From the NCBI RefSeq assembly GCF_014656195.1, contig NZ_BNBY01000004.1, forward strand, positions 62,001 through 126,000: 64,000 nt of DNA. The letters run 5' to 3'. Origin of the DNA: Kitasatospora xanthocidica (GTDB lineage Bacteria; Actinomycetota; Actinomycetes; Streptomycetales; Streptomycetaceae). This document shows, one piece after another, positions 3,150 to 51,894 of this stretch (the stretch's first letter is position 1; every line of letters begins with the position of its first letter). Both the position numbers and the translations under genes were made by a program. The notes under the pieces are model-generated. The model did not search any database. It saw only the letters and a program-made list of their open reading frames with translations, and was not told where the DNA came from.

Positions 3150-3259
3150 GCCGCCCCGGCCGCTCGCGTGGGGAGTCGGCCCGGCCGACTTCCCACGCGC
3201 CACTCCCCCGGCGACAACCCGGTGGCGGGAAGGGCCGGTCGTCAACGACCATGCGCGGT

Positions 3260-48590: not shown

Positions 48591-49190
48591 ATGGCGGACC
48601 CCCGCCCGCGCAGGCCGGCGCGCCCCCGCGAGGAGGTCTTCGCCACCGCCCGGGCCGCGATCGCCGAACACGGGCTCGCCAAACTCACCATGGCCGGACT
48701 CGGCAAACAGCTCCAGATGAGCGCGGGACACCTGCTCTACTACTTCGGCAGCAAGGACCAGCTGCTGCTGGAGACCCTCCGCTGGAGCGAGGACCAGCTC
48801 GGCGCCCGCCGCCGCGACGCCCTCACCGACCACGCCCTCGACCCCTGGCAACGCCTCGACGCCTACCTGCGCCTCTACCTGCCCGAGGGAGCGGGGGACC
48901 CGCGCTGGATCCTCTGGGTCGAGGTGTGGGGCCGCTCCCCCGCGAGCGCCGAGATCCGCCAGGGACAGCAGGAGATCGAGGCCCCCTGGCAGACCGACCT
49001 GGTCTCCCTCATCGAGGAGGGCACCGCCACCGGCCATTTCACCCCGGGCCCCGCCGCCGACCGCGCCCTCCAGATCCGCGCCCTCCTCGACGGCCTCGCC
49101 GTCCCCATCGCCATCGGCCTCCCCGGCGCCCACCCCCCTACCGCCCTCACCCAAGCCACCACGGTGACGGGCATCCTCCTCCGCACCTGA
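48591..49190 (+). CDS. TetR-family regulator, BetI-like
   Basis: A 199-residue protein. The TetR_N HTH spans about residues 14-60 (EVFATARAAIAEHGLAKLTM, then GKQLQMSAGHLLYYFGSKDQ). The C-terminal domain (WILWVEVWGRSPASAEIRQG, then LLDGLAVPIAIGLPG) resembles the BetI/TetR_C_6 type. The start at 48591 follows GAGGGAG. It sits after aguA and is the probable regulator of the urease/agmatine operon. A palindrome-hairpin array starts right after its stop. Confidence 0.92.
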   Translation: MADPRPRRPARPREEVFATARAAIAEHGLAKLTMAGLGKQLQMSAGHLLYYFGSKDQLLLETLRWSEDQLGARRRDALTDHALDPWQRLDAYLRLYLPEGAGDPRWILWVEVWGRSPASAEIRQGQQEIEAPWQTDLVSLIEEGTATGHFTPGPAADRALQIRALLDGLAVPIAIGLPGAHPPTALTQATTVTGILLRT

Positions 49191-49210
49191 AGCCGACCCT
49201 GAAGCCGACC
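49187..49210. repeat. 12-bp tandem duplication at the TetR stop
   Basis: CTGAAGCCGACC occurs twice in tandem (49187-49198, 49199-49210); the first copy contains the TGA stop codon. Confidence 0.93.
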
Positions 49211-49723
49211 CTGTGCGGCGCGGGGGAATATGCAGACCGGTCTAGTGATTCTGCTGCCCGGCCCTGCCCAGCTGCCTGCACCAGAAGTCGACCAGCCCGA
49301 CTTCCTGTACGGCTCGTCGACCCGGCGTGCGCGAGGAGCCCGAGAAATATGCAGACCGGTCTACAGATCAGGCTCGCCCCAGCGGCCCCGTACGCGCGAA
49401 AAGTCGGCGGAACCGACTTCCTGCGATGCGGCTCGCCGGCGCGGGGGAAATATGACGACCGGTCTACAGATTTTCCCACGGAGCCCCTCGCCCCGCGCGC
49501 CAAAAGTCGGCCCCGCCGACTTCCTGTGCCACCCACCGCCGCCCCACCCCCGGTGAATCTGCAGACCGGTCTAGTGATTCCGTTTCCCGGCCCTGCCCAG
49601 CTGCCCGCACCAGAAGTCGACCAGCCCGACTTCCTGTACGGCTCGTCGACCCGGCGCGCGGGAGGAGCCCGAGAAATATGCAGACCGGTCTACTGATTGA
49701 TGGGCGCCAGGAGACCGCGCGCG

Positions 49724-49746
49724 AAAAGTCGGCTGGGCCGACTTTT
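49724..49746. repeat. Fifth hairpin of the array, perfect 10-bp stem
   Basis: AAAAGTCGGC (49724-49733) pairs with GCCGACTTTT (49737-49746) around a 3-nt loop; the T-run at its end makes it the most terminator-like of the six on the plus strand. Confidence 0.85.
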
Positions 49747-49824
49747 GGTGCGGCTTGCCGGCGCAGGGCTTCGCCTCGAATATGACGACCGGTCTACAGA
49801 TTTCACTGGGATAAGCAGGTGGGT

Positions 49825-49857
49825 GCGCCAGAAGTCGGGTGGGGCGACTTCTGGCGC
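49825..49857. repeat. Sixth hairpin of the array, perfect 13-bp stem
   Basis: GCGCCAGAAGTCG (49825-49837) pairs with CGACTTCTGGCGC (49845-49857) around a 7-nt loop. It lies 14 bp before the end of the gene on the minus strand and could serve as that gene's terminator. Confidence 0.85.
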
Positions 49858-49870
49858 GGGGGTGCTGTGG

Positions 49871-51529
49871 TCAGTCGGTCCAGATGGCGGCGGCGGTGCG
49901 GTCGTCGGCGTACCCCTTGGCGCGGACTTGGACCTGGCGCAGGAAGTCGACGGTGCCAGGGGGGTGGGGGTGGGCCCAGTGGGTGGAGAGGAAGTGGGCG
50001 ACGGCGGGTTCGTCGGCGATCGGGCGGGCCAGGCCGGGGGTGCAGAGCAGCAGGATGTCGCCCGGGGTCGCGGGGACGAGCCGGAAGCGGAACGGGCGCG
50101 GGTCCGGGACGGGAGCCTCGGGCACCGGCGGCTGGCCGTCCGGGTGGTGCAGCAGGCGGGCCGCGTACGCGTCGATCCAGTGGCCGGAGCGCAGCAGGTA
50201 GAGGCCGCCCGGGCCGACGCCGAAGGCCGCTCGGTAGCCGGCCTCCGGGTCGAGCGACACCATCAGGCAGTGCAGCGAGGCCGGGGAGGGCGTGTCGTCC
50301 CCCTCCGTCCGGGGCGCCAGCGCGCGCAGCGGGGCGACGGCGCTGGTGGCCAGTCGCTGGAGCCCGTAGCGGAGCCGGTCCCGGGCGCCGTCGCGCAGGT
50401 CGGCGGCCAGGCCGGCCCGGCTGCGTCCGATCGCGGCGGCGAGCTGGCGGCAGGCCTCACCGGTGGCGGTGGCGACGGCCTCGGCGGTGACCGTGTCGAC
50501 CTCGGCGCCGTCCGCCCGGTCGAAGCCGCCGAGGACGGCGAGCAGCAGTCCGTCAGGTCCTTCGCCGAACCGGGTGACCAGTAGGGAGTCCCGGCGCGGC
50601 TCGCCCCGGTAGCGGGCGGAGTCGCCCCGGACGGAAACGGCGCGCAGGACGGACGGCCCGTACTGCGCGCCCTCCAGCACGGTGTCCGGGACAAGCGAGC
50701 GGAGCGCGCCCGGGTCGGCCTCCGGTACGGCCGTCGGCTCGGGCCCGTACGTCGGGGGGCGCTCGCCGACGTGCGGGACGGCGGCCCCGCCGTCGGCGAG
50801 CGGTGCGCGGACGGCCAGCCGGGGGTCGGGGACGATGGCGGGCGCCGGTTCCGGGTCGGGCTCGGGCACCGCCGCGTGGTCGGGTTCGGGTTCGGGCACG
50901 GGGACCGGGTCGGGGACGGGGGCCTCGTCCACCGCGGGGACCTCAGGGGTCACGGGGACCTCAGGGGCCTCAGGGGCGGAGACGACCTCGGGAGCTGAGG
51001 GGGTCTCGGCGACGACCGGCTGGGGCTCGACCTCGGCAACCGGCTCGGGCTCGGGCTCGGGCTCGGAGTCGGAGTCGGCGGACGGGGCGGCCTTCTCCAG
51101 CGAGACGGGCTCAGCCTCCGGCTCCGGCGCAGGCGCCGCCTCCGGCTCCACCGCCGCCTTCGGTGCGTCGTCGGCGAAGGAGGGCGCACGGAACTGGTGG
51201 GTCTCCGTGGACGATGTCCGCTGGCGGCCGATCCCCTCCGACCCGCTGATCACGCCGACCGCGGTGTCGAACCAGTCGTCGATGCTGTCCCGGTTCTCCT
51301 GTACGAGCGCGGGTTCCGGCTCCGGCTCCGGCTCCACCAGCGGCTCCGGCTCCGCCGATCGCTGCTGCCCGATGAGTCCCGCCGCCGTGTCGAACCAGTC
51401 GTCGACGCTGCCGTCCCCCGGGTCGGCGTGCGGGGTGTCGGGGAGGGTGCCCGCCGGGCCGTCGTAGACGGTGTCCCACCAGCCGTCGTCGGGCCGGGGC
51501 GGCTGTGCGGGTGCACCCTGCTTGCTCAT
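49871..51529 (-). CDS. PP2C-like protein with N-terminal WFDTA repeats and Glu/Pro linker
   Basis: A 552-residue protein. The N-terminal part holds a short repeated unit (SVDDWFDTAAGLIG and SIDDWFDTAVGVIS, with an earlier relative DDGWWDTVYDG). A linker of about 170 residues, strongly rich in Glu and Pro (EPEPEPEP-type), leads to a C-terminal PP2C-like domain (about 330-552: LLLAVLGGFDRADGAEVDTV, DILLLCTPGLARPIADEPAV, GYADDRTAAAIWTD). The PP2C metal Asp residues are only partly recognisable, so phosphatase activity is uncertain. Start ATG 51529 has an AGGAG. Confidence 0.85.
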   Translation of the reverse strand: MSKQGAPAQPPRPDDGWWDTVYDGPAGTLPDTPHADPGDGSVDDWFDTAAGLIGQQRSAEPEPLVEPEPEPEPALVQENRDSIDDWFDTAVGVISGSEGIGRQRTSSTETHQFRAPSFADDAPKAAVEPEAAPAPEPEAEPVSLEKAAPSADSDSEPEPEPEPVAEVEPQPVVAETPSAPEVVSAPEAPEVPVTPEVPAVDEAPVPDPVPVPEPEPDHAAVPEPDPEPAPAIVPDPRLAVRAPLADGGAAVPHVGERPPTYGPEPTAVPEADPGALRSLVPDTVLEGAQYGPSVLRAVSVRGDSARYRGEPRRDSLLVTRFGEGPDGLLLAVLGGFDRADGAEVDTVTAEAVATATGEACRQLAAAIGRSRAGLAADLRDGARDRLRYGLQRLATSAVAPLRALAPRTEGDDTPSPASLHCLMVSLDPEAGYRAAFGVGPGGLYLLRSGHWIDAYAARLLHHPDGQPPVPEAPVPDPRPFRFRLVPATPGDILLLCTPGLARPIADEPAVAHFLSTHWAHPHPPGTVDFLRQVQVRAKGYADDRTAAAIWTD

Positions 51530-51894
51530 CTGGCGGCTCCTGCTCGGTCCGTGGGTCGCGCGCCGCCCCCGGCGGGCCGGGCTCGACGTCATTGTTCTCC
51601 AAGTGCAACGACCCTGTCCGGGTTTCGGCGACAACCGGTCACCCATCGGAACATCCCGGCCACCGCGCCGACCAGCCGGTTCGTCGTCCGCGCCGCGGGT
51701 GCGGCGGCGTGGGCGTCACCGCCCGGTCGGCTTCCGGTTCGCCTCCGGTCGGCTCCTGGTCCGCTTCCGTTCCGTCCAGGCTTGCCGGATGTGCCCGGAG
51801 CAGGGTGTTTCCTGGAGATCCGGGCGTGTCGGCCCCCGAAAATGAGGGCCGATGGGGGGCATCGCTTCACACGTTCGGCTGATTAAATGTCCGC
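51530..51894. other. 365-bp divergent intergenic region
   Basis: This region between the PP2C-like gene and the gene at 51895 holds no gene that I can support. It has imperfect about 11-bp repeats of CCGGTCGGCT type around 51721-51780 and a small hairpin at 51829-51852. Confidence 0.45.
51829..51852. repeat. Small hairpin upstream of the gene at 51895
   Basis: TCGGCCC (51829-51835) pairs with GGGCCGA (51846-51852) around a 10-nt A-rich loop. It lies 42 bp before the start codon, within a possible 5' leader. Confidence 0.55.

Follow-up and report, generated by a model that had tools for sequence, protein, structure and literature searches.

A promoterless array of putative LmrA/YxaF-type operators on a clade-specific hairpin repeat in Kitasatospora xanthocidica

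Results

A six-unit array between the TetR and PP2C-like genes

The window analysed here is a 64,000-nt stretch of the K. xanthocidica genome. Within it a 680-bp gap runs from the stop codon of a BetI-like TetR gene (49190) to a PP2C-like gene on the minus strand (49871), and holds six copies of a palindrome, P, and six of a hairpin, H (Table 1). Each P core (GACCGGTCTA) is followed by one H, an AAGTCG-N7-CGACTT inverted repeat, and both sequence inspection and repeat finding recover this alternation across positions 49227–49850 with core spacings of 119, 103, 107, 119 and 104 bp. The first-pass annotation had described six such palindromes, each followed by the inverted repeat, in a gene-free 680 bp, and these features and the spacings it gave are reproduced. 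Its cores also stand as described, but the symmetric elements are longer than it had them: P extends over 24 bp as an imperfect palindrome close to AATATGNAGACCGGTCTACANATT (for example box 1 in Table 1), and the inner arms of H are flanked by an outer stem of about 7 positions. Both motifs are enriched in the window. GACCGGTCTA, at one mismatch or fewer on both strands, has 11 matches against 3.65 expected, and H at the same tolerance has 7 against 0.06 expected; neither count was reached in any of 100 shuffles. A 146-nt stretch recurs within the array at 94% identity (Table 1) and therefore P-H units multiply locally.

An Rfam search of the 64,000-nt window gave no family at its cut-off, and the only match of the array at E≤1 (14 bits where 270 are required, E 0.73) was set aside. 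The 680-bp array had no match in plasmid and phage records. One viral contig in the collection carries an H-type hairpin. No promoter-like site was found in the array region, nor any U-tract terminator-like site on either strand.

Table 1. Positions within the window of the array elements, the flanking genes and the further H-like hairpin
Feature	Position	Strand	Evidence
Flanking BetI-like TetR gene, neighbour	48591..49190	+	PF13977
P box 1, LmrA/YxaF-type operator-like palindrome	49227..49250	+	sequence, pattern
H hairpin 1, 19-bp inverted repeat; outer stem extends the hairpin	49285..49303	.	pattern
P box 2	49346..49369	+	sequence, pattern
H hairpin 2	49401..49419	.	pattern
P box 3, left half variant ACGACC	49449..49472	+	sequence, pattern
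H hairpin 3	49504..49522	.	pattern
P box 4	49556..49579	+	sequence, pattern
H hairpin 4	49614..49632	.	pattern
P box 5	49675..49698	+	sequence, pattern
H hairpin 5	49726..49744	.	pattern
P box 6, left half variant ACGACC	49779..49802	+	sequence, pattern
H hairpin 6	49832..49850	.	pattern
Internal duplication in array, 146 nt, again at 49552-49697 (94%)	49223..49368	+	repeat finding
Flanking convergent PP2C-like gene, start uncertain	49871..51646	-	Pfam match 22 bits, cut-off 24
Lone H-like hairpin outside the array, H family, 1 mismatch, 23 nt past a called stop	3173..3191	.	

H is a clade-specific hairpin family

The K. xanthocidica genome (G000 in our numbering) contains 90 exact copies of H, against none of the reversed control. 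With two mismatches allowed in the neighbour, 47 copies have another H no more than 400 bp away and 43 are single. As judged with a simple purpose-made gene caller, 46 of the 90 are flanked by convergent genes and 2 fall within a called gene. Of the 43 single copies, 30 start within 40 nt past a stop codon, and the 40 nt that precede a start contain none. With the outer stem counted, H is about 33 nt long. Across the 88 of 90 copies used, Watson-Crick pairing in the outer stem exceeds the independent-column expectation at positions 2 to 6, as at position 4 (0.86 against 0.59 expected; C-G 57, T-A 19) and position 6 (0.89 against 0.67; C-G 65, A-T 13). Positions 1 and 7 scarcely vary and have hardly any excess pairing. 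Single copies form on average 6.26 of the 7 outer pairs and arrayed copies 4.81. A run of four or more T lies within 25 nt, on the one side checked, of just 1 of the 90 copies, so H is no textbook intrinsic terminator. The single H is a REP-like 3'-end hairpin that is clade-specific.

Exact H was found in 41 of the 90 genomes searched. Within the genus of the window 32 of 55 genomes carry 13 to 120 copies each and the other 23 none, and 9 of 35 more distant genomes carry 1–2, about the level of the reversed control. This distribution was set against two single-gene trees, an earlier tree having mixed in non-homologous upstream proteins in some rows and shown two very long branches. In the tree of a protein that we take to be cysG-like, a label given by reading it without a family search, the 30 genomes divide at a single branch into the 13 with H and the 17 without in 200 of 200 bootstrap trees. 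In the tree of the window TetR protein the H-bearing genomes, 19 of 30, fall into groups of 15 (support 88/81) and 4 (100/99). On these trees H is inherited within clades. When the 3' end of the cysG-like gene is compared (30 loci, from 55 genomes with a match), 12 of 13 H-bearing genomes and 0 of 17 H-less ones have H there with at most one mismatch, loop and distance to the stop codon varying among genomes. By eye, some H-less genomes (L328 and others of L300–L329) have a different GC-rich inverted repeat 3' of this gene, as if gene ends carried clade-specific hairpin 'dialects'.

A RAYT/IS200 driver of H was considered and rejected: within the genus, 16 of the 32 genomes with H and 10 of the 23 without it have PF01797, which represents the Y1/IS200 type of transposase that this comparison covered, and K. 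xanthocidica itself has one partial match.

Other H arrays in the K. xanthocidica genome differ in what lies between the hairpins. One on contig C30 (40.2–40.9 kb; L076:4200-4900) has an inter-hairpin palindrome, TCTACNCGCGTAGA, in place of P; its three exact copies in the genome all lie within this array, and it is possibly the operator of another regulator. Another, on C17 (L073:3030-3790), has about eight H with two mismatches allowed and neither P nor any other recognised palindrome between them. An array at 86–87 kb of contig C6 (L010:2059-7004) stands between a WXG100/Gln-amidase polymorphic toxin-like gene and a SUKH-4 immunity-type gene.

P is a putative operator of a TetR encoded elsewhere

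A pattern search found 29 P sites in the K. xanthocidica genome, 28 of them in eight clusters with H and one at a TetR locus on contig C33; the site in the C33 TetR promoter itself exceeds the mismatch limit and lies outside the 29. Seven of the eight P-H clusters lie away from the window array. The pairing of P and H is a small repeated system rather than a local oddity, recurring in these seven further places and in related species. When units from different loci are compared (24 units, 239 pairs), identity is 0.81 for P, 0.98 for the H arms and 0.47 for the spacers against 0.45 when shuffled; as P and H were picked by pattern, their identity is inflated relative to the spacers, and the spacer randomness alone escapes this ascertainment. 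P and H centres lie 50–57 bp apart in 35 of 47 cases, on both sides. No helical period stands out, the signal being a single spacing peak.

On C33 the P core stops 11 nt short of the ATG of a TetR gene. A second P, with no H there, precedes the next gene (SDR-type). The C-terminal domain of this TetR is LmrA/YxaF-like (PF21993, E 6.5e-29), and its best solved relative, with a closely matching helix-turn-helix, is B. subtilis YxaF (1sgm, E 2.2e-30). Orthologues of at least 72% identity are present in 12 of 90 genomes, K. xanthocidica included, and P sits in the TetR promoter in all 12. Each of these promoters has a -10 TAYTRT 6–7 nt before the ATG, and 10 of 12 have a -35 TCGACA; because the -10 is so close to the ATG, the transcript is apparently leaderless. 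P is also a close fit to what we take to be the LmrA/QdoR box, AWTATAtagaNYGgTCTA. Comparison marks P as a putative promoter operator of the C33 LmrA/YxaF-like TetR, which bears out the first-pass impression that the palindrome resembles LmrA/YxaF-type operators. In a survey that scored at most 36 candidates per genome, 27 of 55 genomes of the genus had no homologue of this TetR at E≤1e-30.

Of the 28 array P, 0 have a TANNNT -10 placed as in the TetR promoter, and 0 have a -35 agreeing at 4 of 6 positions in the same register. The second P on C33 likewise has no -10 or -35 in this register, so this feature alone does not mark a site as non-regulatory. The array copies are operator-like sequences, putative operators in which the promoter elements of the TetR site were not found.

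P tracks with the C33-type TetR. The census used a 24-mer probe in which two positions were free (the reversed control gave 0 in each of the 25 genomes) and, at three mismatches or fewer, found P in 12 of 12 chosen genomes with an orthologue and in 1 of 13 without; the lone P in the latter adjoins that genome's own 61% homologue. P was absent from 7 of 7 genomes that have 30–98 H and no orthologue of at least 72% identity. A stricter search of the genus for P followed by H matched in 6 of 9 genomes with an orthologue and 0 of 28 without. G002 and G006 carry the orthologue and have P nowhere but at the TetR locus. The genomes compared are related, so these counts overstate independence. Among the 25 genomes examined, comparison indicates that P has multiplied only where a C33-type TetR is present. 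In G020, four P-like boxes just beyond an LmrA/YxaF-like TetR gene (L124:2192-2412) form a P array at the locus of the regulator.

The array in other species

Homologues of the BetI-like TetR flanking the array (E≤1e-30) occur in 37 of 61 genomes, and 30 loci from these 37 were read. H with at most one mismatch lies downstream of the gene in 7 of the 30, with six copies in K. xanthocidica, six in G019, four in G022, two in G004 and one each in G011, G031 and G001. P is present in 2 of the 30, K. xanthocidica and G022. Reached by other routes, the same locus has four P in S. novaecaesareae and two in G065. With both P and H here in G022 and S. novaecaesareae as well, the array is not a recent duplication unique to this strain, the outcome that the first-pass annotation named as evidence against its proposal. 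The six-H array of G019, a genome with no homologue of the C33 TetR at E≤1e-30, contains no P relic better than shuffled sequence, and the best P-like segment of the G004 H array has 10 mismatches, equalled in 17 of 200 shuffles.

Further afield, a scan of named genomes (257 Gb) gave five loci with P and H among the 114 stretches listed, three in S. novaecaesareae and one each in Streptomyces sp. MJM8645 and Kitasatospora aureofaciens CPD02; the remaining stretches look like chance matches in a scan of this size. In 40 stretches from nine relatives, chosen mostly among the P matches listed for 25 genomes, 84 of 112 P (at most four mismatches) have an H (at most two) within 150 bp. The other 28 have none and some lie upstream of genes; P clusters can therefore exist alone, and part of the P sites may be ordinary regulatory operators. 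P-H distances in relatives (n=120) are below 48 bp in 7 cases, 48–57 bp in 41, 57–66 bp in 25 and above 66 bp in 47. In a syntenic gap of three species (L336, L353 and L354) two or three P-like boxes each, with no H within 250 bp, are perhaps a promoter target of the TetR.

Several K. xanthocidica clusters fall in regions syntenic with clusters of other species. In the divergent gap between ribokinase and Nudix genes one P block is in place in six species, with four mismatches or fewer in five and degenerate in G022; H was not found at this gap in G010 and G017. One aligned block read by eye suggests that P is retained here. Identities pooled over the ribokinase/Nudix alignment (P 0.60, H 0.47, rest 0.78) do not place P or H clearly above background, nor do those of a second alignment set for P (0.87 against 0.84 for the rest). 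Both alignments pool lineage-specific copies, which in part explains the low P averages, and their background includes conserved leader sequence.

Discussion

Our results favour a model, which we consider probable, in which the array is a promoterless operator cluster for a trans-encoded LmrA/YxaF-type repressor, built on a clade-specific hairpin repeat; its main consequence may be titration. The array would be one of eight clusters in the genome in which putative operators of the C33 repressor alternate with H, and the repressor is predicted to bind its P sites. Titration would then be the likeliest consequence of the array. Less confidently, the 28 promoterless sites may compete with about two at the repressor's own locus and may set both how much repressor silencing requires and how sharply induction occurs. 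With similar caution, the H hairpins might end or protect transcripts entering from both convergent genes. The clusters presumably grow and shrink through local duplication of P-H units. The lead given in the first-pass annotation, of a multi-operator or decoy array or else a new repeat family, is supported, and P and H recur genome-wide.

The main rival is a neutral, self-maintaining history in which H is a multiplying REP/BIME-like repeat, P is carried along with it and the copies have no selected role. The fast turnover at the window locus, from 0 to 6 H among related species, and the duplication inside the array both fit such a history, as do the weaker outer stems of arrayed H (4.81 pairs of 7 against 6.26 in single H) and the failure of P to rise above background in pooled alignments. 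However, P and H are kept while the spacers are random, P is kept at one locus in several species, and the six-H array of G019, which appears to be without the repressor, has no P or recognisable relic of one. Transposases of the Y1/IS200 type, the driver of known REPs, also do not track with H, and we regard neutrality as a minority possibility. The boldest reading retains a role for both elements and makes the array a ligand-gated, bidirectional terminator. A repressor bound at P would be a roadblock stalling RNA polymerase just past H and replacing the missing U-tract, so that promoterless operators some 52 bp from U-tract-less hairpins would let a ligand control both free repressor and read-through at many places. 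It would suit the position of H 3' of genes (30 of 43 single copies within 40 nt of a stop), the near absence of T-runs (1 of 90, on the side checked) and the spacing of 50–57 bp in 35 of 47 cases on both sides, which with polymerase dimensions as we presume them would put the stalled active centre several nucleotides past the hairpin base. Yet the spacing is looser in other genomes (41 of 120 at 48–57 bp, 47 of 120 over 66 bp), some P clusters elsewhere have no H, the units are related by duplication so that their distances are not independent, and the geometry itself relies on presumed footprints. We consider such operator-gated termination rather improbable, and roadblock-assisted termination in general equally so.

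The remaining explanations assign P a different protein or product. Many promoterless, clustered sites for a TetR-family protein, at similar places across species, recall SlmA or Noc and a function in chromosome organisation, in which clustered sites load a protein acting on the nucleoid or on division. This is very unlikely: P is also the putative operator in the repressor's own promoter and precedes the SDR-type gene, as for a classical repressor, about 30 sites are few for a 9.3-Mb genome, and no C33 TetR homologue at E≤1e-30 was scored in 27 of the 55 genomes of the genus. The first-pass annotation also raised a set of small RNAs with terminators; P would then be the promoter and H the terminator of each, and the regular units ending in a hairpin fit this. 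We give this hardly any weight, given that none of the 28 array P has a TANNNT -10 or a 4-of-6 -35 in the register of the TetR promoter, that no promoter-like or U-tract terminator-like site was found in the region, and that no Rfam family matched at its cut-off. The adjacent BetI-like TetR (48591; PF13977), for which the same annotation suggested a binding assay, has in its favour its position and the presence of P downstream of this gene in four species. Against it, the pattern finds no P downstream at 28 of 30 homologue loci, P goes with another TetR, and seven of the eight clusters are at other places in the genome. The adjacent gene is probably irrelevant to the P array, and it is very hard to credit that P sites are its operators.

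The closest known counterparts of P, under the preferred model of a promoterless operator cluster, are the LmrA/QdoR (YxaF) boxes of B. subtilis, whose repressors belong to the same TetR subfamily as the C33 protein and, like it, have a site at their own promoter and another before the neighbouring gene. One account places one QdoR operator at qdoR and two at qdoI (PMC8481877). The difference is one of number and place, with one or two operators at promoters in that system and 28 further promoterless sites in hairpin clusters for P. For H the counterpart is the REP/BIME class of Enterobacteria and Pseudomonas, palindromic extragenic repeats of 21–65 nt that are often found between convergent genes, isolated or clustered (PMC1525189). 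H resembles these in being a short palindrome of about 33 nt with many extragenic copies (90, with 2 in genes) and in its preference for 3' ends and convergent intergenic positions (30 of 43 single copies near a stop; 46 of 90 convergent). It differs in that it does not track with RAYT (Y1/IS200-type) transposases, that it keeps an invariant inner arm pair with a covarying outer stem, that several species have it at the same 3' end at the one locus compared, and that it alternates with a putative transcription-factor operator.

As we read the field, operator decoys are known as synthetic constructs, and the case for natural titration has been made mainly for DnaA. In E. coli, datA and other DnaA-box clusters are chromosomal site clusters that lower the amount of free regulator (PMC12371093). 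Titration is measured in that system and would only be predicted for the P array, and the DnaA system has no hairpins. SlmA is a TetR-like DNA-associated protein and Noc binds sites scattered around the chromosome (PMC3573117, PMC4331003). P is set apart from such sites by being also a putative promoter operator. In mouse rDNA the Sal-box elements bound by TTF-I are repeated, protein-bound terminators downstream of a gene, and are what roadblock-assisted termination would resemble, although the polymerase there is the eukaryotic polymerase I. The literature covered in part on repeats of Streptomyces and Kitasatospora, on LmrA/QdoR/YxaF, on decoys and on SlmA yielded no description of P-H, and one may have been published elsewhere.

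If the proposed model is true, 28 promoterless operators for one TetR, with which they come and go in the genomes examined, would offer a ready test of natural repressor titration and, more generally, of operator arrays as a genome feature. The C30 array, in which H alternates with TCTACNCGCGTAGA, suggests that the principle may be wider than P. With H, streptomycetes also have a family of REP-like hairpins whose core is conserved in sequence.
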